From Acidiphilium acidophilum (GTDB taxonomy: Bacteria > Pseudomonadota > Alphaproteobacteria > Acetobacterales > Acetobacteraceae), in contig NZ_JAWXYB010000018.1 in assembly GCF_033842475.1 (NCBI RefSeq), forward strand, positions 1,409,501 to 1,473,500: DNA of 64,000 nucleotides, read 5' to 3'. How positions within the stretch are numbered: the stretch's first letter is position 1; every line of letters starts with the position of its first letter. The notes below the pieces were generated by a model. The model was not told the DNA's origin. It worked only from the letters and a program-made list of their open reading frames with translations, and did no database searches. Of this stretch, positions 25,478-59,517 are shown piece after piece. Position numbers and translations under genes: made by a program.

Positions 25478-28400
25478 TCATGCCGCAATCCGGTAGCGCG
25501 CTGCCCCCGCCAGCGTGATCGTGATCGCATCGACCCCCTCGTCACCGAGCAATGAAGCGGGGATCAGCGCCGCGCCATCGGTCCAGCGGCCATCCGCCTC
25601 GCAGGCGTGCCACCCGTCTGCGAGTGCGGGATGATCAAGCGGGATCGACCGCCCGCCAACCGCGATCGCCGCGATCTTGACCCCGAGCCGCCGCCTGTCG
25701 CGCGGATCGGCCGAAAGTTCCGCCGGAATGAAATGCCGCGAGGCAACCACCGCGCCCGCCGCAACCCGCATGATCCGCATCGCCGCATCGTCGGTCAAAA
25801 CGAGATCGGCCCGCGCCAGCAGCCGCGCCCGCACCGCCTCGACCACCGGCCCCGCCTCCACGAACGGTGCGAAGCTCGACGCCACCCGCATCGCCTGGGC
25901 GAAATCCGGATGCAGCCGGACCGCCCCGCCGCCGCCGGTGAAATCCGCGCGGTCGCCACTGTCGAGATAGGATTCCGCCGCCGCCCCCTCGGCGAGCAAT
26001 GCGCCGTGTCGCGGCAGTTCGACATGGTGATAGGTGATGCGATCGACCGCAACCTGACGGATCGTCGCCCCATTGACCAGCGCCTTCGCCGGGATCAGAT
26101 GGCCATCGAGCCAGAAGGCGTGATCGGGCGAAACCCGCAGCTCACGCGCCGGAACCCCGTCGGCAAGCGCACCCGCTGCCAACACCACCGGATTGACGGC
26201 CTCAGGATGCGCATGGCGCGCGGGCGACAAATCGCGTTGACCGCGCCAGACGATCGGAGCGAACCCGCCATCGGCCAGCCGCGCCAGATCGCCCACGATC
26301 AGGGCTTCCACCGCGACCTCGCCCCGCGCGGTCGCAATGCGCGTGCCAGTGGCAAAGCAGTGAACATCGAGCTGCGGCCCGTCCGGACCCGCAACGATGC
26401 CGACGCCCGCGCTCAGCCCGGGCGAATTCGTCACCGCCAGATCGATCGTGGCCGAACCGACCGTCAGCACCAGCGTGCCATTGCTGTAGGTGGCACCGGT
26501 CAGCCCGGTGAGGCTGGGCAGGCTCAGCACATCCCCCGCCGCGAACCCGCTCAGCGTACCGGCGAACTGGGTCGGGTCGCCGAGCACGATGGTGCTGCCG
26601 GCACCGCTGAATTCGATCACCTGTCCGGCACCGACCGGCCCGTTGAAGATGCCAGTGGTCGGATCGAACACAATCCTGCCGGTCCCCTCGATAGGGCCGG
26701 CAATGTCGAGCGTATCGGCGGCGGTTTCGATGATCGTACCGTTATTGATCAGCGTGCCGGTGATCGTGGTGCTGCCCGCGATCTCCCAGGTCGCGCCGGT
26801 CGCCACCTCCAGCGTGTGGAAATCGACGAACTGGGTACCGTAGCCGCTCAGCGTACCCTCGGTCGCCCCCGACCCGAGTTCGAGCAGGCTGATCCCGGAC
26901 GTCTCGGTCGCGCCGCCCACCTGCCCGATGAACACCGCACCCGGATCATCGATCACCGTCCCGCGGAATCCGCCGGTGAGTGCTGCGGTCCCGGCCGCGC
27001 CGCCGGTGCTTTCGATCGTCCCGGCATTGATGATCGTGCCGTTATAGACATAGGTGCGGAACACCCCCGAAAGCGTGGCGCCCGCCCGGTTATCCAGCGT
27101 CCCGAAAATGACTTCCGCGCCGTTGAACGCCCCGGTCATGGTGCCTTCGTTCGTGACCGTGCCGGTATTGACGTAGGCCCCGTTATAGCCGGTGATATAC
27201 CCACCGGCCCGATTGGTCAGCGTGCCGACGCCCGCAAGCTTCACCCCGTCGCCGGTCCCGGTATCGATGATCGTGCCGGAATTCACCACATTCCAGCTCG
27301 CAAGCGAGGAGCCGAAAACCGAGGCGACCGTCGAAGCACTCGACACCGTAGCCCCCGGCGCCAACGAGGTGGAGGGTGCGGTCAGCGTCAACCCGTTATA
27401 GACGCCGGTCGCCGTGGCCGCGCCGAGCGTGACATCGGTCCCGCCATGCCCGTCCGAGGCGAGGGCGAATTCATCGCCGGTGAACTGCCCGACCATGCCG
27501 TAGGTCGCCACTACAGTGCCCTGTTCCGAAAGGGTCAGGTAGCCATTGGCGAAGGTCGCGGCATCGAGTTTGGTCTTGGCGAAATCCAGCGTATCGGTCG
27601 CCGCGAAGCCGGCGATCGCGCCGATGATGGTCGATTTCGGATCGACCACGATGGTCTCGGCACCGCCGCCCAGCACCAACCCGATCCCGGCGGTCCCCTC
27701 GATCACCCCGGCATTGATGACCGTGCCATTGCTCGCATAGACCCCGTAATGCCCAACGATCACCCCGCTCGCCTTGTTGTCCAGCACCCCGGCGAGCGCC
27801 ACGCCGCCATACCCGACCGTGCCCGCACTGCCTTCGATCAGCCCTGCATTCACCACGGTCGCGTTATCGACGAACACGCCGTATTTGCCGCTGATCGTGC
27901 CGCCGGATTTGTTGGTGAGCGACCCGCTGCTCTGATAGACCCCATCCGCCGTGGTCCCGGTGATCACGCCGGAATTGGTCAGGGTGCCGACCCCGATATC
28001 CACCCCGGTGGTGCCGATGATCGTGCCGATATTGGTCACGGTCGCCTGATCGCCGAGCAACAGCCCATCCCCGGCGCTATCGGCAATGACCCCCTTGTTC
28101 ACCACGGTCCAGGTCCGTGCGCCCGAGCCATAGACGCCGGCAGTCCCGCCCACATAAGCCGAAGCGGCAAAGGTGGTCTGCAACGCGCTGAGGGTGAAGC
28201 CCGTCCCGTAGCTGCCGGTCACGATCTCGCGCCCGATCGTGACATTGGTGCCGCCGATCCCGTCGCTGCTGAGGGTGAATTCGCTGCTGTTCAACTCGCC
28301 CGCCAGCGCGATGGTCTCGACCACATCATTCTTGCCGGAAAGGGTCAGCACCCCGTTGGCAAAACTTTCCCGCGTGATCGCCGCCCCTGCGACGTCGATC

Positions 28401-29671
28401 GTATCCCCCGCGATGAAACCCGCGACGTTACCGACGATTTTCGATCCGGTATCGACCACGAGGTCGGTATCGGAAATCCCCATCGCGATCGCGGTGCCAC
28501 CGGGTGCCGTGCTGCGGATCAGCCCGGCATTGACGATGGTGCCACCGACCAGGGTGATCCCGAGCGATCCCTCGATGATCCCATAGGCCGCGTTGGTAAT
28601 CCGGCTGGCCTGCTGGTTGAGCCCGACATAAATCCCGATCCCGTCGCTCGCCGAACCCGCGATGATCCCGAAATTCTCGATCGTGCCACTGTTCACCCCG
28701 GCAGCGGTCGGCCCAATGATTACGCCGCTGGCCTGATTGATCAACGCTCCGTTGAAAACATAGGCCGCCCGTCCGGCACCGGTATTACTGGCGATCGTCC
28801 CGGCATTCACCAGCGTGCCGGTCCCGAGCGACACCCCAGAACCAGCCCCGGAATCGACATCGATCACCCCGGAGACCGCATTGGTCACGATGCCCTCGGA
28901 GATGTTCACCGCATTGCCGTAAAAACCGGCATTGACGATGCTGCCCTCGTTCACCAGCGTCACGCCGTGATCGAGCGTCGAATTGATCCCGCCGCTGTTC
29001 AGACTGAAATTCGTGTCCCTGGAAATCGTGGTGGCCAGCGCGGTGAGCTCGAAGGGGCCGCTATAGCTGCCGCTCAGCGTTTCCGCGCCGAGCGTGATGT
29101 TGGTACCGCCCTGGCCATCGGTGTAGAGGCCGAATTCCCCGGTATTGAATCCACCCACCAGCGAAAGGCTCGCCACCGCGCTGCCCTGATCGTACAGCGT
29201 CAGCGTCCCGGCGGAAAAACTCTCGCTCGTCGCGGTAATCCCCGCGAGATCGATACTGTCGCCCTGCACGAACCCGGCGATCCCGCCATCGATCACCCCG
29301 CCCTGCACCACGGTCAGCGCATCGGCACTGCCGTTGCCGAACGACACGGCGGCCCCGGTGCCGAGCGCCATGATCGTCCCGGCATTCACCAGCGTCCCGG
29401 TGCCGATATAAACCCCGACACTGCCCTCGACGAAACCGCCAACCCCGTTGGTGACAAGACCCTGCGTCAGCGAAATCCCGCTCTGCTCGCTGTTGCCCTC
29501 GACAGAGCCGAGATTGAGCAGGGTGAACAATGTGCCATAGGCCCCGCTGACGGCGGCACCATACCCTTGAGTGGTGATCGTCTCAGTCGCCGTGATGGTA
29601 TTGGGATTTCCCGTCAGGGTCAGGCCGGAGGAAACGATGCTCGCCGCGCTCGCCAGGGTCGTACCAGACAT
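25478..29671 (-). CDS. Large Hint-domain surface protein with beta-helix-like repeats
   Basis: 1397 residues. Most of it (1 to ~1000) consists of short repeats of the kind GTLVNAGTI / GVYIGTG / GVITNxGxI, as in filamentous-haemagglutinin-like beta helices. Three longer blocks recur at about 126-200, 411-482 and 681-752 (AGFxxGDTIDxAG...LTL...EFxLxSDGxGGTNVTLG). Residue Cys1105 (CFATGTRIATARGE) opens a Hint_2 domain to about 1250 with SPDHAFWLDG. Such Hint proteins are common in Acetobacteraceae and are presumed secreted and perhaps self-processing. No cleavable signal peptide is evident. GGAGAG precedes ATG 29671. Confidence 0.82.
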   Translation of the reverse strand: MSGTTLASAASIVSSGLTLTGNPNTITATETITTQGYGAAVSGAYGTLFTLLNLGSVEGNSEQSGISLTQGLVTNGVGGFVEGSVGVYIGTGTLVNAGTIMALGTGAAVSFGNGSADALTVVQGGVIDGGIAGFVQGDSIDLAGITATSESFSAGTLTLYDQGSAVASLSLVGGFNTGEFGLYTDGQGGTNITLGAETLSGSYSGPFELTALATTISRDTNFSLNSGGINSTLDHGVTLVNEGSIVNAGFYGNAVNISEGIVTNAVSGVIDVDSGAGSGVSLGTGTLVNAGTIASNTGAGRAAYVFNGALINQASGVIIGPTAAGVNSGTIENFGIIAGSASDGIGIYVGLNQQASRITNAAYGIIEGSLGITLVGGTIVNAGLIRSTAPGGTAIAMGISDTDLVVDTGSKIVGNVAGFIAGDTIDVAGAAITRESFANGVLTLSGKNDVVETIALAGELNSSEFTLSSDGIGGTNVTIGREIVTGSYGTGFTLSALQTTFAASAYVGGTAGVYGSGARTWTVVNKGVIADSAGDGLLLGDQATVTNIGTIIGTTGVDIGVGTLTNSGVITGTTADGVYQSSGSLTNKSGGTISGKYGVFVDNATVVNAGLIEGSAGTVGYGGVALAGVLDNKASGVIVGHYGVYASNGTVINAGVIEGTAGIGLVLGGGAETIVVDPKSTIIGAIAGFAATDTLDFAKTKLDAATFANGYLTLSEQGTVVATYGMVGQFTGDEFALASDGHGGTDVTLGAATATGVYNGLTLTAPSTSLAPGATVSSASTVASVFGSSLASWNVVNSGTIIDTGTGDGVKLAGVGTLTNRAGGYITGYNGAYVNTGTVTNEGTMTGAFNGAEVIFGTLDNRAGATLSGVFRTYVYNGTIINAGTIESTGGAAGTAALTGGFRGTVIDDPGAVFIGQVGGATETSGISLLELGSGATEGTLSGYGTQFVDFHTLEVATGATWEIAGSTTITGTLINNGTIIETAADTLDIAGPIEGTGRIVFDPTTGIFNGPVGAGQVIEFSGAGSTIVLGDPTQFAGTLSGFAAGDVLSLPSLTGLTGATYSNGTLVLTVGSATIDLAVTNSPGLSAGVGIVAGPDGPQLDVHCFATGTRIATARGEVAVEALIVGDLARLADGGFAPIVWRGQRDLSPARHAHPEAVNPVVLAAGALADGVPARELRVSPDHAFWLDGHLIPAKALVNGATIRQVAVDRITYHHVELPRHGALLAEGAAAESYLDSGDRADFTGGGGAVRLHPDFAQAMRVASSFAPFVEAGPVVEAVRARLLARADLVLTDDAAMRIMRVAAGAVVASRHFIPAELSADPRDRRRLGVKIAAIAVGGRSIPLDHPALADGWHACEADGRWTDGAALIPASLLGDEGVDAITITLAGAARYRIAA

Positions 29672-49987: not shown

Positions 49988-50821
49988 TCAAGACTTTTCC
50001 GATGACGCTTCGGCTTCAACGTCCCGCCCCTGGCGGATCTGCGCCGCAACCGCCCCGATCCGTGCCTCCAGCGCCGCGCCGAGCTGCTTGCGCCCGCCCG
50101 CAACCACCAGCGGCGGATCGATCACGATCCGCGCCCGCCAGTCATGCCGTCCGAGTTCGGCGTAATGCGAGGCAATGTCCATATCGCCATACCACGCCAC
50201 CAGGGGTCGGTTGCGCCGGCAGATCGGCAACCCGTCCATCCGGTCGTAAACGATCGTCACCGCCTGCACGATCGGCCTGGTCGCATCCCCCGCGAGGGCG
50301 AGGAATGTCGGATGAAACGGCATCACCCGCGCCCCGTCCGAGGTCGTGCCCTCGGGAAACAGGATCAGATTATCCCCGGCGGCCAGGCGCTCCTGCATCG
50401 CATTGCGCTCGCCCGCCGCCGCGCGATGCCGGCGCGAGACGAAAATCGTCCGCCCCGCCGCCGCCACCCAGTTGATCCCGGGCCAGCGCGCAACCTCCGC
50501 CTTCGCCACGAAACACCCCGGCAGCACCGCCCCAAGGGCGACGATATCGAGCCATGAACTATGATTCGCCACAAAAATCACCGGCCGCCCGTCTCCCTGC
50601 GCCACCGCGCCGCTGACATCGAGCCGCAACCCCACGATCCGCGCCACCCCGCCCCAGTAGCGCATCGGCAATCGCTGCTTGCCCGCCCCTGGCAGCCGGA
50701 TCAGCACCATCTGCACCGGCAGCAGAACCAGCGTCCAGACCACGAACACCACCAGCCGCCCCAGCATGCGCAGGGTCGCGACCACCCCTAACCCCGACAG
50801 AAGCCCCGCGTCACGGCGCAT
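49988..50821 (-). CDS. 1-Acyl-sn-glycerol-3-phosphate acyltransferase (PlsC-type)
   Basis: 277 residues. Catalytic NHSSWLD (HX4D motif) and the FPEGTTSDG substrate-binding block, plus a hydrophobic N-terminal stretch. Acylates lysophosphatidic acid in phospholipid synthesis; a lyso-ornithine lipid acyltransferase is also possible. Overlaps the RgpF-like stop by 11 bases, so it may be transcribed with the glycan cluster. Confidence 0.88.
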   Translation of the reverse strand: MRRDAGLLSGLGVVATLRMLGRLVVFVVWTLVLLPVQMVLIRLPGAGKQRLPMRYWGGVARIVGLRLDVSGAVAQGDGRPVIFVANHSSWLDIVALGAVLPGCFVAKAEVARWPGINWVAAAGRTIFVSRRHRAAAGERNAMQERLAAGDNLILFPEGTTSDGARVMPFHPTFLALAGDATRPIVQAVTIVYDRMDGLPICRRNRPLVAWYGDMDIASHYAELGRHDWRARIVIDPPLVVAGGRKQLGAALEARIGAVAAQIRQGRDVEAEASSEKS

Positions 50822-51854
50822 CCCCCTTCAGCATCGTCCGCAAATCCGCAATGATCGGCCCCGGATCAACCCCGAGCGTATCCCGCAGCACATCCGCCCA
50901 ATCCCCGACATCCTCAACCCGCGTCGGATTGTCGCGCAGCAATTCCCGCTTGATGAACGGATACCCCGACAGCAGCAGATGCCGCCACAAATCTGAGGTC
51001 GGGTTGAGCGGCTTGCGCCGGGCGATCGCATCGCGCAGCCGCAGCACATGCAGCCAGCGGGTCAGGTCGAGCGGATCGTTGCGCGTCGATCCGTCTCCCG
51101 CCAGATACTCGGTCAACTGGTCGCGGCTGATCTGCTTGGTCAACATCTCATAGGGCCACAGCACCGAAACCCGCAGCCCCGCCTTGATCATCGCCTGGGT
51201 CATGCCGATCTCATATTTCCCGATCACATAGGCTTTCGAAGGTGCCGGGATCACCTGCGCCCAGAATTTGCGGAACGCCGCCGAGCGGATCGCCCGCGGC
51301 CCGAACGCCACGAAATACGACTGCAGATGATACCGCCGCTGCCAGCTTTCGGTCAGTCCCCAGACATCCGCCTCGGCATAATCGAGCCGTAACAGCGTCG
51401 CCTCCAGCGGTCGCACCGGTCCGAACACGCTGTCATTGACGATGATGATCTCCTCGGTCTCCGCCTGCGGCAAATTCAGCGTCTCGATCCCGTCCCGCCA
51501 GCCGCCGAAATCATACCCGATATTGCGCCGCACCAGCACGCCCGCGCACAGGGTCAGAAGCCGCGCCTCGGCATTGGGCTCGATCTTGCCCGCATTGGTC
51601 ACGAAAACGACCGACCGTCCCGATTCCGCCAGTTGCGCGATATAGCTGAACAACGCCTCGCGAACCCGCCCGCCGCGATCCCAGTGCAAAAACAGCACCA
51701 CTTTCGGCCCGAGCGAAATCCCGGTGACCGGCTTGCTGACGATCACCTGATGCGGGCTGCGCAACCGCCCGAGCACCCCTGCCACCGCAAGCGTGACCGC
51801 CGCACGAACCGCGCTGACCCCGAGCCAGAGCCGGCGCAACACCGCCATCATCGT
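50811..51854 (-). CDS. Rhamnan-synthesis-F-like protein
   Basis: 347 residues from ATG 51854. The core resembles the RgpF family (rhamnose-glucose polysaccharide synthesis): VVLFLHWDRGGRV, RRNIGYDFGGWRDGI, IIIVNDSVFGPV, and GKYEIGMTQAMIKAGL. Acts on surface polysaccharides, probably as a glycosyltransferase-like protein. Alternative starts are ATG 51887 and 51851. Its 5' end is overlapped by about 340 bases of the preceding open frame; it may be the C-terminal part of a larger protein split by a frameshift. Confidence 0.8.
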   Translation of the reverse strand, partial: TMMAVLRRLWLGVSAVRAAVTLAVAGVLGRLRSPHQVIVSKPVTGISLGPKVVLFLHWDRGGRVREALFSYIAQLAESGRSVVFVTNAGKIEPNAEARLLTLCAGVLVRRNIGYDFGGWRDGIETLNLPQAETEEIIIVNDSVFGPVRPLEATLLRLDYAEADVWGLTESWQRRYHLQSYFVAFGPRAIRSAAFRKFWAQVIPAPSKAYVIGKYEIGMTQAMIKAGLRVSVLWPYEMLTKQISRDQLTEYLAGDGSTRNDPLDLTRWLHVLRLRDAIARRKPLNPTSDLWRHLLLSGYPFIKRELLRDNPTRVEDVGDWADVLRDTLGVDPGPIIADLRTMLKGDAP

Positions 51855-54800
51855 GCCCCCCGCCGGTGAGTTCCGCCGCGAGATCATCCGGAGCGCCCTG
51901 ATACCGCTTCAGCATGGCCCGGCCCAACGCGGTCGCCTCCGCCGCCCGGTCGGTCCGGTGCAGCGCGATGATCTCGCCCCGCAGCGACTCCCAGAACAGC
52001 GCGGGTGCCGCCTCGCCCTCGCCAAGCTCCAGCGCAAAACCCCGGCGCACCGCAGCGAAGGCCGCTTCGGCCCGGTGCGGCTGCGCCGGTTCCTGCAGAT
52101 CGAGAACGCCGAGCGCATACCCGGCACTTCGCAACCCCTCCGTCGTCGCCTTCGCGTAATTGACAAAATCCTTTTCGATCCGCGAGCGCAGCCGCCCCGC
52201 CCCGGCAAAATCCCCCCTCGCCACGGCGGTGACGAACCCGGCGGTCGCCAGCGCCTGAACCCGCGCCGGTTCGGCATCGGCGTCGAGCATGTCGAGCAAT
52301 CCCACCAGCCCCTCGATATCGCCGGATTCCGCCGCGAATCTCGCCTCCGTCGCGATCAGATCGGCACGGCTCGCCGGATCGAGCAGGGTAATATCGATCA
52401 TCCCGAACAGCGGTCGCGCCTCGTCCTCGCGCCCGAGATGGATCAACCGCAACGCGGCCTGCGCCCGCGCATCGGCACAAGCCACCGCCGTCAAACCGGG
52501 CAGGCGCGCGACCAGATGCGGCACATCCGCCGGATCGCCCCTGACCAGCGCAAGCGCGACCAGCGCGATCGACGCATCAGCCCCATCCTCGTCATCCCCC
52601 CGCCGCGCCCACGCCTCGATCGGCGCGCCCTCCCGCAGATCAATCGCCTCGTCGTAACGCCCCCGGTTGACCAGCGTCACGAAGGCCCCGAGCGTGATCT
52701 GCCGCCGCCGCTCCTCATCGATCCCCACCCCGGCAATCCGTCGCGGCGCCATCGCCGGATCGCCGGTTACAAGGTCGAGAATCGCAAGCCCGATGACCGC
52801 ATCCAGCCCCTCCAACGTCGCCGGATCGGCCATCGCCTCGATCCCCTCCGCCCGCGCAAACGCCTCGGCATCCTGATACCGCGCCGCATTCACCAGCCGC
52901 GAAAACGCCCCGATGATCAGCTCGCACCGCCGCGCCTCATCAATCGCCAGCCCCGCGAGCCGGGCCGGCACATCCATCGGGTCCCCGGTCGCCAGATCGA
53001 GCAGCGCCAGCGCCAGCCGCGCATCGTGCCCGGCGACATCATCGCGCGCCACCGCCCGGCTGACGATGTTCTCGGCATCCACGAACAGTATCGCCTCCTC
53101 ATGCCGCCCGGCATCGACCAGCCGGCAGAACGCCTCCAGCACGATCTGATCGCGCCGCGCCGGATCGAGCGCCACCCCGCGCAGCAGTCCCGGAACCGCC
53201 ACCGGATCGGCGGTCCGCTCGATCACGATCGCCAGCGCCGCCCGCGCATCCGCCGCCACATCATCCTCGCGCCGCAGCGCCGCGGCACTCACCGCCCCGA
53301 TATGAAGCGCCGCCTCCCCGTACCGCCCGCCATTCGTCAGGCGCACGAACCCACCCAGCAAAATCTCATCCGCCGCGGTCTCTCCGGCATCCATCATCCC
53401 CGCGATCATCATCGCCTCCGCCGGATCGCCGTCAGGCGCCAGCGCCATCTGCCCGCGCACGATCATCGCATCCCGCCGCACCAGCGCGGGCAGATCATCC
53501 AGCTCATCCAGCAGCCCATACCGCCCGACCATCTCCCGCGCCGGATCGATCGCCCCCTGATTGACCAGTTCGACCACCACCCGCCACGTCGCCGCCGCAA
53601 GCTCACCCCGCCCGACCGGCAGCGACCGCAGATAATCAACCCGCCCCAGCGTCTCCGGTGCCGCCACCCGCGCCGCCTCGATCGCCGCTTCCGCCGCCCC
53701 GCGCCACACCAGTTCCTCGGCCAGACCGTCGTTCAGCGTCGCCTGTGCCAGAGCGGAATGAAGTGCCTGCGCCGCCATGCCCGCGAGCGTGAACATCGCC
53801 CCCGCCTGCGGTCGCAGCACCGGCTCGGCGCGCAACCGGCTCGCCTCGGCGTATAAAATCATCCCGAGATTCAGCGGCATCGCATCCTTCAGCGCAGCCA
53901 GCCCGATCCCGAAAAAATCCGCCGGAACCTCCCGTAACTCATCGAGATCGAGCCCGAACCGCGCCCTGATCGCCGGCCACAGCAAACCCCGCGCCGTCCG
54001 CGCCGCCGCCCAATCCAGATCCACCACCGCCTCGAACATCGCGCGCCCGGCAAACCCCAGCCCCAGATCGCTCCCGGTCGGCACCGCCGCCGCCCGCGCC
54101 GCCAGATAATTCCGAAACCGCGCCCGATGATCCGCCCGCTCGTCGGTCACCACCCCCGCGATCGCCCCGGCATAGGCCACCAGCGTCAGCCCGTCCCGCC
54201 CGACCACGACATCGCCGAACCCGGCCGCCGCAAACAACCGGCGCAAACTCGCCTCGGTCTGAAACACCATGTGAATGCCCGGTGCCAGCAACTGCGCCAG
54301 CGCCGCCTCCGGCGTCTCGCGCCTGATCGCCTCGCCATCCGGCGTCGTCAGCAGCAACACCCCGTCGCGCGCCAGCCGCGCCCGCAACGCTGCCAGCAGG
54401 GCAGGGGGTTGCTCGACATGCTCGATCACCTCGGTCGCCGCGATCACGTCCCAGATCCGCGCTTCCGGGTCGGCCTGCGGAAAATACCCATCACGGATCT
54501 CGATCGCGAGATCCGCCGCCCCCAGCCGCGCCATCGGCGACGGATCGATGCCCATCCCCTCCCAGCCCAGCGCATGGATCGCGAAATCCAGCCCGAACCC
54601 GTACCCGCACCCGATCTCCAGAAACCGCGTGCCCCCCGGCCGGTCGATCCGCCCGAGCGGTGCCGTGATCGGCACCAGCCCCGCGCCCTGCTGGATGTGA
54701 AACTGATGCCAGCCCCAATCCATCACATCCGGATCATGATAATTCGGCACCTTCAGCGGCGGATAGAACCGCGCGGTGCAGGATGGACACATATAAACCG

Positions 54801-54951
54801 GCTTGCGATCGCCCTGCGGCAGCTTGGGCGCCACCCAGGCCACATCCAGTACATGCGGCTTGTCCCCCGCCGCACCGCAATTCGGGCACACCCCCTGATA
54901 CGCCGGCTGATCCGATGCCGGCCAGTCGATCCGGATGCCGCCCGCCGGCAC
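51511..54951 (-). CDS. Methyltransferase with long helical repeat region, apparent frameshift at 3' end
   Basis: From GTG 54951 (GGGAGG eight bases upstream) the frame gives about 1030 credible residues. An N-terminal zinc ribbon (CPNC, residues 22-25; CPSC, 55-58) precedes a SAM methyltransferase domain (FLEIGCGYGFG near 110, then EVIEHVEQPPALLAAL). Next comes a mainly alpha-helical region with four tandem ~74-residue repeats (about 530-820). From 51861 downwards the frame continues ~117 codons antagonistic to rgpF, with Arg/Gly-rich shadow composition, to a stop at 51511. A six-G run at 51856-51861 sits exactly at this point. Probably a glycan methyltransferase or scaffold. Confidence 0.72.
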   Translation of the reverse strand: MPAGGIRIDWPASDQPAYQGVCPNCGAAGDKPHVLDVAWVAPKLPQGDRKPVYMCPSCTARFYPPLKVPNYHDPDVMDWGWHQFHIQQGAGLVPITAPLGRIDRPGGTRFLEIGCGYGFGLDFAIHALGWEGMGIDPSPMARLGAADLAIEIRDGYFPQADPEARIWDVIAATEVIEHVEQPPALLAALRARLARDGVLLLTTPDGEAIRRETPEAALAQLLAPGIHMVFQTEASLRRLFAAAGFGDVVVGRDGLTLVAYAGAIAGVVTDERADHRARFRNYLAARAAAVPTGSDLGLGFAGRAMFEAVVDLDWAAARTARGLLWPAIRARFGLDLDELREVPADFFGIGLAALKDAMPLNLGMILYAEASRLRAEPVLRPQAGAMFTLAGMAAQALHSALAQATLNDGLAEELVWRGAAEAAIEAARVAAPETLGRVDYLRSLPVGRGELAAATWRVVVELVNQGAIDPAREMVGRYGLLDELDDLPALVRRDAMIVRGQMALAPDGDPAEAMMIAGMMDAGETAADEILLGGFVRLTNGGRYGEAALHIGAVSAAALRREDDVAADARAALAIVIERTADPVAVPGLLRGVALDPARRDQIVLEAFCRLVDAGRHEEAILFVDAENIVSRAVARDDVAGHDARLALALLDLATGDPMDVPARLAGLAIDEARRCELIIGAFSRLVNAARYQDAEAFARAEGIEAMADPATLEGLDAVIGLAILDLVTGDPAMAPRRIAGVGIDEERRRQITLGAFVTLVNRGRYDEAIDLREGAPIEAWARRGDDEDGADASIALVALALVRGDPADVPHLVARLPGLTAVACADARAQAALRLIHLGREDEARPLFGMIDITLLDPASRADLIATEARFAAESGDIEGLVGLLDMLDADAEPARVQALATAGFVTAVARGDFAGAGRLRSRIEKDFVNYAKATTEGLRSAGYALGVLDLQEPAQPHRAEAAFAAVRRGFALELGEGEAAPALFWESLRGEIIALHRTDRAAEATALGRAMLKRYQGAPDDLAAELTGGGHDDGGVAPALARGQRGSCGGHACGGRGARAVAQPASGDRQQAGHRDFARAESGAVFALGSRRAGSRGVVQLYRATGGIGTVGRFRDQCGQDRAQCRGAASDPVRGRAGAAQYRV
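52485..53364 (-). repeat. Four tandem ~74-residue protein repeats
   Basis: Repeat units begin near 53364, 53145, 52920 and 52698. Shared core: GAFxRLVNxGRYxEA at the start and DARxALALLDLxTGDPxxVP...IDExRR towards the end. Diverged at DNA level, so ancient duplication rather than recent slippage. TPR/Sel1-like but not a match to either consensus that I know. Confidence 0.75.
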
Positions 54952-54986
54952 GTCACCATCCTCCCGCCCGGGCACGCCGGATGTGC

Positions 54987-56765
54987 TCAAGCGAACAGCG
55001 CCGGCACCCGGGCCCGCAGCGCTTCGGTCAACTCCTCCCGCCGCGCCCACAGCGCATGATACCAGTCGGTCCGCGCCCGGACCTGATACGCCAGCATCCG
55101 CCCCGCGCTCACCTCGGCCCGCGCCGCCTCCGCCAGCCGCCGCGCCGCATCGGGGTAGGCGAGCAGCCGCAGCAACTGCATCCGCAGATGATCCGGGCTG
55201 CGGAACAGCAACCCGGTCTCGCCCTCGCGCACGCTCGCCTCATACACCACCGGGCTGCACAGCGAGACCACGCGCGCCGCACTCGCCTCCAAAAATTTCA
55301 GATCCGATTTCGCCTGATTGAACACGGTATCCTGCAACGGCATGAACGAAATCTCCGACTGCGCGAGCAGCCCCCGATAGGTCGGGTAATCGCAGGTCGG
55401 CACGAACGTCTTTTCCGTCGTATCCAGCGCATCGAAAAACCCGCGATCATGCACCACGGTCACGGCAAGCCGCGCCCCCACCGCCCGCAGCACCTCGTTC
55501 AGCACCGGCATATACGGCGCCCAATCCTCCTCGCGGTTCAGCGCCCCGAAAAACAGCGTCATCCGCTCGGGATCGGCGAAATTCACCGGCGTCGGCAGTT
55601 CCGCCACCGCGTTCGGAAACACCGCGATCTCGGGATTGAACCCGCACAGCACCGCCGCCAGCGCCTCGGTACTGGTCTGCACCGCATGCACCGCCGTGAA
55701 CGTCAGCAAATCCGCCTGCGAAACCCCGCGCGCCTCCAGAAATCCCGGATGATCGTCGAATTCCGACACCACGACATACCCGCGCCGGATCAGCTCGCGC
55801 ACCCGCGCCAGCCCCGGCTCGCCGAGCAGCAGCGGCCGGTGCAGCACCGCCACCTGCGCCCCGCCCTCGAATATCGGGGTCAGCTCGCTCTCCGGGCGAA
55901 TACTGGTCAGCAGCGAGGCATCGGTCGCCATCGCCCGCACCGGCTCGATCACCCGCGCATCGGAAACCCCGCCCACCGGCGGCAGCATGGTGGCGCCGAG
56001 CACCAGCCGGGGCCGCGGCTGCTTCTTCGCCCGCCACACGAACTGGATCGGCGCCGCCCGGTTCAGATAATCCCCGGTATCGATCCCCAGCGCGCCGAGC
56101 GCCGGTCCCATCGCCTCGACAAACCGCGCCGCCTCGGTCGGATCGACCGGGCGCGGCCGCACATCGCACACCGTCAGCCCGGCCCGCTCCAGCGCCGCCC
56201 CCATGGTGCGCGGGGTGAACCACCGCAGATGCGTCCGGTCGAGCAACCCGGCATCCTCATAATCGAAACTGCCCTTGAGCAGCCGGTAGGTGATGCTCCA
56301 ATGCTCGACATTGGGAAAACACACCAGTACCGTCCCATCCGGATTGAGCACCTCGACATGCCGCGCCAGTACCGCCCACGGATCGGCCAGATGCTCCAGC
56401 ACATCGCCATACACCAGGCAGTCGACCCCCTCGGACAAATCGAAGGGAAACGCCTCGGTCTGCACGTCGCACACCGCCGCCTCGGTCAGCCGGGTCCGCG
56501 CCACCTCGATCGAACCGGGATCGATATCCACGCCCAGCATCCGCGCGCGCGGATTGCGCCGCAGATACGCCGCCCCGATCGCCCCGCCGCCGCACCCGAT
56601 ATCGATCAGCGTGCGCGCGGTCAGCGGCATGGTCTCGACCAGATCGGGATTGGCGAAATCCGGATACGCCCCGATCATCGCAAGCCCATGCTGATCGCGC
56701 CGCACCGCCTCCTCGCCCGCCGGTCCGGCGGTCTGCCCCTCGTGAGCGGTGGCGACATCATCCAT
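54987..56765 (-). CDS. SAM methyltransferase-glycosyltransferase fusion
   Basis: 592 residues. The N-terminal half (about 20-240) is a class I methyltransferase: TLIDIGCGGGAIGAAYLR, DVLEHLADPWAVLARH. The C-terminal half (about 260-580) looks like a GT4-type glycosyltransferase, with FPNAVAELPTPVNF and KFLEASAARVVSLCSPVVYEASVREGETGLL; the EASAAR-x-EGETG region matches the sugar-nucleotide-binding end of GT4 enzymes. ATG 56765 overlaps the ugd stop by eight bases. Its role is glycan chain modification and extension. An upstream ATG at 56783 is possible. Confidence 0.78.
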   Translation of the reverse strand: MDDVATAHEGQTAGPAGEEAVRRDQHGLAMIGAYPDFANPDLVETMPLTARTLIDIGCGGGAIGAAYLRRNPRARMLGVDIDPGSIEVARTRLTEAAVCDVQTEAFPFDLSEGVDCLVYGDVLEHLADPWAVLARHVEVLNPDGTVLVCFPNVEHWSITYRLLKGSFDYEDAGLLDRTHLRWFTPRTMGAALERAGLTVCDVRPRPVDPTEAARFVEAMGPALGALGIDTGDYLNRAAPIQFVWRAKKQPRPRLVLGATMLPPVGGVSDARVIEPVRAMATDASLLTSIRPESELTPIFEGGAQVAVLHRPLLLGEPGLARVRELIRRGYVVVSEFDDHPGFLEARGVSQADLLTFTAVHAVQTSTEALAAVLCGFNPEIAVFPNAVAELPTPVNFADPERMTLFFGALNREEDWAPYMPVLNEVLRAVGARLAVTVVHDRGFFDALDTTEKTFVPTCDYPTYRGLLAQSEISFMPLQDTVFNQAKSDLKFLEASAARVVSLCSPVVYEASVREGETGLLFRSPDHLRMQLLRLLAYPDAARRLAEAARAEVSAGRMLAYQVRARTDWYHALWARREELTEALRARVPALFA

Positions 56766-58188
56766 CGGCAAGGTCCTTCTCATCTCTGCCCATCACGGCA
56801 TGGTCATCGTCAGCATCATCATCGTACGCGTCAGCATCGGCAGTCACCGGGCGCTGCCCGCGTCCCACCCCATGATACACGAATCCCGCCGCGCGCATCG
56901 CCGCCGGATCGAAAATATTGCGCAGGTCCACGATCACCCGCCCCGCCATCGCCTGCGCCAGCCGCGCCGGCGCCAGCGCGCGAAACTCGTTCCACTCGGT
57001 CATCACCACCAGCAGATCAGCACCCTCGATTGCCTGCAACGCGCTTTCGGCATAAACCACCGACCCCGGCAGCAGCGGTTTCGCCGCACTCATCGCCGCC
57101 GGATCGTAGGCCGCAATCACCGCCCCGGTCTCCGCCAGCGCCTCGATCGCGGGAATCGCGGGCGAATCCCGCATATCGTCGGTCTCCGGCTTGAACGCGA
57201 GGCCGAGCACCGCGATCCGCCGGCCCCGCAAATCCTCGCCCGCCGGCCCCGCCGCCAGCGCGAAATCGATAATCCTGCGCCCGAGCCCGGCCTTGCGCGC
57301 CTCGTTCACCGCCACCACCGCCTCGGTCAGCCGGCTCGGCGCGCGGGCATCCTGCGCGATCCGCGCCAGAGCCAGCGTATCCTTGGGAAAGCAAGAGCCA
57401 CCGAATCCCGGCCCGGGATGCAGGAACTTCCGCCCGATCCGCCCATCCAGCCCCATCCCGCGCGACACGTCATGAACATCCGCGCCCACCGCCTCGCACA
57501 GATCCGCCATTTCATTGATGAACGTCACCTTCATCGCAAGATAGGCATTGGCCGCGTATTTGATCAGTTCGGCAGTCTCCAGCCCGGTCATCAGAACAGG
57601 CGTCTCGATCAGATTGAGCGGCCGGTACAGCGCCCGCAAAACCGCCCGCGCCCGCTCGGTCTCCGCCCCCACCACCACCCGATCGGGTCGCATGAAATCG
57701 CCGATCGCGCTGCCCTCGCGCAGAAATTCCGGGTTCGACGCAATCTCGACCGCAAGATCAGGCCGCAGCCGCGCCGCCAGCGCCGCCAGCTTCCGCCCGG
57801 TGCCGACCGGCACGGTCGATTTGGTCACCAGAACCACCGGATGATCGAGCGCCTTCAGCACCTGCTCCGCCGCCGCGAACACATAGGTCAGGTCGGCATG
57901 GCCGCCGCCCCGCCGCGAGGGCGTGCCCACCGCGATGAACACGGCCTCAACCCCGGCAATCGCCTCGGCCAGCGCCCCGGTGAACGAAAGCCGCCCCGCC
58001 GCCCGGTTGCTCGCCACCAGCGCATCGAGCCCCGGCTCGTAAATCGGCATCTCGCCCGCCAGCAGCCGATCCAGCCGCGCCGGATCGGTCTCGGCGACAC
58101 ACACCTCGACGCCGAATTCGGCAAAACACGCCGCCGATACCAGGCCGACATAGCCGCCGCCGATGATCGCGATTTTCAATCCGGGCAC
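56758..58188 (-). CDS. UDP-glucose 6-dehydrogenase
   Basis: 476 residues. NAD-binding GGGYVGLVSAACFAEFG, catalytic Cys266 in GFGGSCFPKD, and NPEFLREGSAI. Oxidises UDP-glucose to UDP-glucuronate for acidic exopolysaccharide. Canonical sequence ends near residue 448 (GVGR); a further ~28 residues are an Asp-rich tail (DADAYDDDADDDHAVMGRDE) not typical of the family. First gene of the minus-strand glycan operon. Confidence 0.93.
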   Translation of the reverse strand: MPGLKIAIIGGGYVGLVSAACFAEFGVEVCVAETDPARLDRLLAGEMPIYEPGLDALVASNRAAGRLSFTGALAEAIAGVEAVFIAVGTPSRRGGGHADLTYVFAAAEQVLKALDHPVVLVTKSTVPVGTGRKLAALAARLRPDLAVEIASNPEFLREGSAIGDFMRPDRVVVGAETERARAVLRALYRPLNLIETPVLMTGLETAELIKYAANAYLAMKVTFINEMADLCEAVGADVHDVSRGMGLDGRIGRKFLHPGPGFGGSCFPKDTLALARIAQDARAPSRLTEAVVAVNEARKAGLGRRIIDFALAAGPAGEDLRGRRIAVLGLAFKPETDDMRDSPAIPAIEALAETGAVIAAYDPAAMSAAKPLLPGSVVYAESALQAIEGADLLVVMTEWNEFRALAPARLAQAMAGRVIVDLRNIFDPAAMRAAGFVYHGVGRGQRPVTADADAYDDDADDDHAVMGRDEKDLADG

Positions 58189-58344: not shown

Positions 58345-59517
58345 ATGTCCGATCCCGATCCTGCCATCCAGCCGCCTTCCGGCGGTCGGTCTCGCGCCCG
58401 ATTGACCCGCACCCTGCTGACCCGGACGCTGCTCCGCGGTTCCACCCGCCCTCTGCTCCGCATGGCCCTGGGCCGCTGGCCCACCGGGGCCGAAGCCGAT
58501 CTGTTCCGCCGCGCCGTCGCCACCAAATTCGTCCGGATGCCCGCCCTCCTGCGCGGCCTGATGCTCCAGCCCGATATGGAGTCCCTCCTGCCCGAATTGC
58601 TGCGCATGATGTGGTTCATCAAAAACCAGGGCATGACCATCGACGATCTCGAACGAACCGGCCCGGTCCCGCCGATCCCCGATCTCCTCGGCAATATCTT
58701 CACCGCCTGGACCGGCCCGAAACTCGGCTTCCTGCATCTGGAAAAATGCGGCGGCGTCGCCGTGGTCAAATGGCTCACCGGGCAGTTCCACCCCGACCAG
58801 ATCGACCCCGACCCCCTGCGCGCCGCGCCCCCGCATAATTTCTATCGCGCCCCGCCCGGCATCGGCCGTGACATCACGAAATATTCCCTGCTCTGGGGTC
58901 ATTTCGGCCTGCCCACCCTCGAACGAATCGAACCCGAGCGCTTCATCTTCACCATGCTGCGCGACCCGCGCGCCCGCCTGATCTCGCTGTACCGCTACTG
59001 GCGCGCGGTCAATCCCGCCATGGTCGACGACATCGAACACGATCCCGTGGTCGGGTCCGCCCACCGCAACGACCTGCTCGGTTTCCTGCGCGACCCCGAA
59101 CCCCTGCTCCGCGATTACATCGACAATTTCTACGTCCGCCGCCTGACCGGACGCTACGCGACCGGCGCCACCATCGATCCTCTGATCCGCTCGCCGGTCG
59201 CCGCCCTCAATCAGGCGGTCGCCGCCCTCGACCGGATCGGCTTCGTCGGCATCACCGAACGGATGGACGAAAGCATCCATCGCCTCGCCGCCCTGATCGG
59301 CGCAAAGCCGCCCGAAGCCCCGGTGCGCGGCAACATCGCCGCCGAAAACCATACCGACCCCAGCGGCTGGTTCCGCCGGACCGAAACCGTCACCATCACC
59401 GCGGAGGCCGAGGCCGAAATCGAGCGCCTGACCCGGCTCGACCGGGTGGTGTACGAAATCGCCCGCGCCCGGTTCGACGGCGCGACCCAACCGGTGAGCG
59501 CGGTTGTCGCCGCCTGA
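58345..59517 (+). CDS. Sulfotransferase-family protein
   Basis: 390 residues. A PAPS-binding-like 5' loop is FLHLEKCGGVAVVKWL and the 3'-phosphate block FTMLRDPRARLISLYRYW, both typical of bacterial sulfotransferases. N-terminal ~100 residues of Arg-rich sequence are unassigned. Likely sulfates a polysaccharide or lipid near the divergent glycan cluster; 156 bases separate it from ugd. Followed by aat. Confidence 0.8.
   Translation: MSDPDPAIQPPSGGRSRARLTRTLLTRTLLRGSTRPLLRMALGRWPTGAEADLFRRAVATKFVRMPALLRGLMLQPDMESLLPELLRMMWFIKNQGMTIDDLERTGPVPPIPDLLGNIFTAWTGPKLGFLHLEKCGGVAVVKWLTGQFHPDQIDPDPLRAAPPHNFYRAPPGIGRDITKYSLLWGHFGLPTLERIEPERFIFTMLRDPRARLISLYRYWRAVNPAMVDDIEHDPVVGSAHRNDLLGFLRDPEPLLRDYIDNFYVRRLTGRYATGATIDPLIRSPVAALNQAVAALDRIGFVGITERMDESIHRLAALIGAKPPEAPVRGNIAAENHTDPSGWFRRTETVTITAEAEAEIERLTRLDRVVYEIARARFDGATQPVSAVVAA

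Follow-up and report, generated by a model that had tools for sequence, protein, structure and literature searches.

In E. coli O9a, WbdD-type terminators carry a coiled-coil spacer that acts as a ruler for chain length, and in one Klebsiella terminator a TPR-like bundle precedes the coiled coil (PMC3482155, PMC11231755). The Caulobacter flagellin glycosyltransferase FlmG has a TPR domain that is required and sufficient for flagellin binding (PMC7591256). Here we describe a protein that joins a methyltransferase to a long helical repeat region, encoded in a 64,000-nucleotide stretch of Acidiphilium acidophilum DNA (the window). The repeat is real, its predicted fold is of a known class and its length varies naturally to an unusual degree; its function is partly constrained by genomic context.

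A methyltransferase with a tandem repeat

The open frame covers 51511-55050 on the reverse strand, to which all coordinates within this gene refer. The likely start is the GTG at 54951, with GGGAGG about 10 bases upstream and the previous stop 36 bases before it, and the whole frame from this start occupies 51511-54951. A zinc-ribbon-like stretch, CPNC...CPSC (residues 55-91, 54778-54888), comes first, followed by the methyltransferase domain and then by an all-helical tail. The four cysteines are invariant in seven relatives and may bind zinc. The methyltransferase domain (residues 138-278, 54217-54639) matches Pfam Methyltransf_23 (E 1.2e-21, 77.6 bits against a cut-off of 27), and its glycine-rich SAM motif, LEIGCGYGFG, is almost invariant. 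Profile and motif together indicate a class I SAM methyltransferase, predicted to carry out methyl transfer. Alignment showed that a C-terminal helical region and end cap (residues 860-1064, 51859-52473) is common to long and short members of the family, and that in the short forms the N-terminal part is followed at once by sequence matching residues about 930-1060.

The proteins of the relatives end at a position equivalent to residue about 1066, near 51850 in the window. A 99%-identical contig labelled Acidiphilium has a TGA at this family end, overlapping the ATG of the next gene (L067:1290-1315). The window is one base shorter than that contig at the family stop (51511-51870), and its frame therefore overruns by about 113 codons, giving a tail (51511-51852) that is foreign to the family and crosses the RgpF gene in another frame. 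The lost stop is either biology or a sequencing error.

Four tandem units of 73-75 residues each occupy 52477-53361 (frame residues 564-858), with core motifs at residues 566, 639, 714 and 788. The best ungapped self-matches scored 173 at an offset of 149 and 157 at offsets of both 74 and 75, whereas the highest score among 100 shuffles was 58, placing the array well above chance. A profile built from the four units recovers them, its own seeds, as unit 1 (residues 564-636, 53143-53361), unit 2 (637-711, 52918-53142), unit 3 (712-785, 52696-52917) and unit 4 (786-858, 52477-52695), all helical in the model; independently of the seeds, it detects between 4 and 10 units in relatives (lowest E 2e-33). 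The four-copy repeat of about 74 residues claimed in the preliminary description is thus borne out, and the coordinates given there (52485-53364) were correct to about 10 bases. A widened profile added a degenerate unit ahead of the array (residues 493-547, 53410-53574, i-E 4e-4).

Two further segments had been said to recur in each unit. The TGDP-VP-like segment, (T/R)(G/A)DP..(V/A)P, does follow every one of the four cores, but the IDExRR-like close, (L/I)D(P/E).RR, ends only units 1-3 and is absent from unit 4. No tandem repeat of the unit period was found in the DNA of the window gene, which argues that these copies are old. Asn occupies unit position 10 in 86% of units and, in the model, lies at about the C-terminal end of the first helix. 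It is reminiscent of the Asn ladder of OGT, but helix capping would be at least as likely a role.

Sequence family and predicted fold

Among the Pfam and NCBIfam repeat families, none scored above cut-off in the window protein. The best TPR matches lay far below it (TPR_14, for example, 10 bits against 23.5), and a PHROGs search returned nothing. The confident match to an existing Pfam repeat family against which the preliminary description had staked its proposal did not appear. The period of 73-75 residues is neither the 34 of a TPR nor the 35 of a PPR, and the PPR family was absent from the Pfam matches. When approximate consensus strings for TPR, PPR, Sel1, HEAT and ARM were compared with the unit, TPR and PPR came highest, but with ARM so near that we give the comparison no weight. 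The Gly, Tyr and Ala of the core GRYxxA are spaced as in the TPR consensus. The repeat profile did not match the TPR-GT41 protein of the window's own genome, a sequence search for a solved relative of the repeat region found none, and the sole match in a PDB profile search was LRPPRC (E 0.13). Matched to each other by hhalign, the two halves of the unit (about 37 residues each) did not rise above shuffled controls, and the two-hairpin nature of the unit is therefore invisible from sequence alone.

Two AlphaFold models, one from the single sequence and one from six sequences, both give a helical solenoid (model residue numbers are frame residue numbers minus 38). In the six-sequence model pLDDT is about 85-95 over most of model residues 270-920 but falls below 50 in the poorly modelled methyltransferase part. 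The confidently modelled, helical repeat region agrees with the original suggestion of a helical repeat. In this model each unit forms about two helical hairpins and a short linking helix (74 = 2 x 37). Units 2 to 4 have two helix pairs, with a first helix of about 16-17 residues and a second of about 8-11, as well as additional short helices; unit 1 differs in that its first pair has a short second helix. For both models the top Foldseek matches were mostly TPR and PPR solenoids (E 5e-6 to 1e-3 for the six-sequence model), with low whole-chain TM-scores, as expected when the curvature of the superhelix differs.

The six-sequence model shows the stacked antiparallel helix pairs of the TPR-like fold class, and the repeat is very probably a TPR-like alpha-solenoid. 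On the modelled helix pairs and the Foldseek matches, the unit is most aptly regarded as two TPR-like hairpins that have diverged. The statement that the repeat length is not the 34 residues of a TPR was thus true of the period but misleading, as the unit corresponds to about two hairpins and its closest structures are TPR/PPR solenoids. Similarly, what had been called a new helical repeat is new as a sequence family, one missing from Pfam, but its architecture is that of the known TPR/PPR class of solenoids.

Distribution, copy number and gene neighbourhood

When two conserved peptides of the repeat region were scanned against GTDB contigs, every locus recovered was labelled Acidiphilium or Proteobacteria MAG. 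With a profile of the family-specific part that follows the methyltransferase domain, we counted carriers in 40 of the 397 genomes sampled from the same taxonomic family (13 of 102 genera). A repeat doublet profile run against 385 genomes across the class, a sample with few known carriers, matched only the window's own genome and, weakly, one other, in which the matching stretch gave no clean translation in the frame read. The repeat has so far been seen in one bacterial family.

The number of units (all those with E under 1e-3, counting degenerate ones at the ends) differs widely between carriers. Seven genomes of the window's genus have 4-5 and two further ones have 10; G034 has 12, five genomes of genus g101 have 5-7, and all remaining carriers have 0-2. 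On a tree built from the methyltransferase and the region following it, long and short forms interleave, with at least four changes between them, and a single clade of g101 long forms is rejected (p-AU 4e-12). Units in Acidiphilium keep a position-specific sequence between species. Because the units of long forms match by position across species, the history that fits best in the genus concerned is one of a long ancestor and repeated losses. In G389, neighbouring units of 75 residues are identical at 215 of 225 bases (95.6% at the DNA level; L107:6799-9834), the signature of a recent in-frame duplication. Another C-terminal module, of about 120 residues and containing SDLWWAALRGE, is tandemly copied in G028 (L063:8771-11359) and G150 (L140 near 8700), and is a second, independent lengthening of the family. 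The changes in the array, the duplication in G389 and the copying of this module together indicate a tail that habitually changes length.

The gene is the middle member of a row on the reverse strand. It follows a UDP-sugar (UDP-glucose/GDP-mannose) dehydrogenase (56758-58188, Pfam E 5e-55) and a methyltransferase fused to a glycosyltransferase-like domain (54987-56783; Pfam Methyltransf_12 E 4.9e-15, Glyco_trans_1_2 E 8.4e-7), and is followed by an RgpF-family protein (rhamnan synthesis F, a probable glycosyltransferase; 50811-51887, Pfam RgpF E 1.6e-29) and a PlsC-like acyltransferase (49988-50821, Pfam Acyltransferase E 1.8e-22). The row is kept in the window's genus and most of g101, and partly in G034, regardless of array length. 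RgpF is the most constant neighbour, adjoining the gene in most other readable loci too; several members, G321 and G361 among them, have lost it. In these two genomes (L111, L112), both with short forms, the gene lies beside 2-oxoglutarate dehydrogenase genes and apart from glycan genes. A separate clade of short forms (G028, G204 and G150; L064, L115 and L116) has a DEAD-box helicase as neighbour, with no glycan genes alongside. Elsewhere in the window, a divergent neighbour at 58345-59517 (forward strand) has a sub-threshold match to galactose-3-O-sulfotransferase and stands beside the row only in the window's genus, and a 1397-residue frame at 25481-29671 (reverse strand) has a C-terminal Hint domain as its sole Pfam match.

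Several loci place the row near flagellar genes. In five genomes from three genera, fliI and fliJ are found upstream in the same orientation. They immediately precede the methyltransferase-solenoid gene in G028 and G150; in G247 they come ahead of the methyltransferase-glycosyltransferase fusion, and in G029 and G098 ahead of the dehydrogenase. The window does not have this arrangement. At another locus of the window's own genome (L146:2494-5446), flagellin, FlbT and a DUF1217 gene are followed by a TPR protein and a protein with TPRs and an OGT-like GT41 domain, a cluster that, by its gene content, points to cytoplasmic O-glycosylation of flagellin. Across the sampled genomes, flagellin is no commoner in carriers than expected (35 of 40, against 287 of 357 others; association not significant), and GT41 is equally common in both groups (22 of 40 against 20 of 40). 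Three carriers of 98-99% completeness (G172, G257 and G288) had no flagellin match, so some family members probably act on something other than flagellin. The fliI-fliJ context, the flagellin/TPR-GT41 cluster and the precedent of FlmG make flagellin a possible, if doubtful, acceptor.

Proposed function and comparison with known systems

We picture a SAM-dependent methyltransferase that carries a zinc-ribbon-like stretch on its N-terminal side and a long alpha-solenoid on its C-terminal side, the 74-residue module being inserted between helical start and end regions common to all family members. It would be a partner in the making or finishing of a glycan, together with the RgpF-family glycosyltransferase and often with the methyltransferase-glycosyltransferase fusion and the UDP-sugar dehydrogenase; a shared glycan pathway with RgpF is probable. 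Its target, a glycan or a glycoprotein, with flagellin leading the candidates, would be methylated in the cytoplasm. The solenoid would dock a protein, whether partner enzyme or acceptor, and bring it to the methyltransferase. We think it reasonably likely that protein docking is the role of the repeat, and we lean slightly towards the explanation as a whole, a methyltransferase with a docking solenoid in a cytoplasmic glycan pathway. The preliminary description had suggested that the repeat docks glycosyltransferases or the growing glycan. Docking of a glycosyltransferase is plausible because an RgpF-type gene is the neighbour in most readable loci; nothing we found supports the growing glycan as the binding target. 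Since the short forms manage without the array, docking through the repeat cannot be essential to core activity.

A serious rival, though on balance rather unlikely, is that the array lengthens almost neutrally, recombination readily adding and dropping units while the array still folds and its length has little function. This fits the repeated changes between long and short forms on the methyltransferase tree, with the g101 long forms not one clade, as well as the recent duplication in G389 and the copying of the 120-residue module in G028 and G150. However, the position-specific sequence that Acidiphilium units hold across species, and the 4-5 units kept in seven genomes, point to selection on individual units. 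The variable length also makes the analogy with WbdD attractive. The solenoid would then space a chain-terminating methyltransferase from a polymerising glycosyltransferase, the number of units setting glycan chain length. Such a modular, evolvable spacer, in which every 74-residue unit moves a docked glycosyltransferase or acceptor one fixed step further from the methyltransferase, would let species adjust the length or modification pattern of their glycans as units come and go, and would be the solenoid counterpart of the WbdD coiled-coil ruler. The parts come in the same order as in WbdD, methyltransferase and then extended helical spacer, the gene stands in a glycan row, and 0-12 units are found at one conserved locus. 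We nevertheless consider a ruler improbable: the row has neither an ABC exporter gene nor an obvious processive polymerase, the Wzt_C domain of the WbdD-type partner exporter had no match in the window's own genome, most family members are almost without an array, and a solenoid curls, so that its length need not rise with the number of units.

Two other readings concern the nature of the repeat itself. It could be a helical repeat of an entirely new kind, with no relation to the TPR-like class, as all Pfam repeat families fell below cut-off, the two halves of the unit are no more alike than controls and whole-chain TM-scores are low. The helix-pair layout of the model and top Foldseek matches that are nearly all TPR/PPR solenoids make this very unlikely. 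A PPR-like protein that binds RNA and methylates or guides it is hardly credible: PPR proteins are among the top Foldseek matches and LRPPRC is the only PDB profile match, but the gene sits in a glycan row, the unit has 74 residues and not 35, and a PPR profile match is wholly absent.

A methyltransferase with a docking solenoid is our preferred reading. The protein resembles several known systems in part. The sugar C-methyltransferase TcaB9, which has a zinc-binding N-terminal part, matches weakly and in the methyltransferase core only (E 7e-4); outside the core there is no match, and the window protein adds the solenoid tail. With TPR/PPR alpha-solenoids, its closest structural matches, the repeat shares successive antiparallel helix pairs, but its unit comprises about two hairpins in 74 residues, no profile exceeds its cut-off and the whole-chain similarity is low. 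FlmG is likewise alphaproteobacterial and combines a helical-repeat domain with a sugar-related enzyme; the window protein may share its flagellar link. In contrast to FlmG, the window protein is a methyltransferase and not a glycosyltransferase, carries its enzyme at the opposite end and has no positive sequence relation to it, and its own genome encodes a separate TPR-GT41 protein beside the flagellin gene. The WbdD proteins of E. coli O9a and Klebsiella share with it an N-terminal methyltransferase, an extended helical spacer and surrounding glycan genes; the window protein differs in lacking a kinase and in having, according to the models, a solenoid in place of the coiled coil. Nature also supplies a graded set of this one gene, often at one conserved locus, with from about 1 to 12 units and with long and short forms in close relatives. 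Such a set makes it possible to test cleanly how solenoid length affects an enzyme, and whether the spacers of enzymes that finish glycans measure length.
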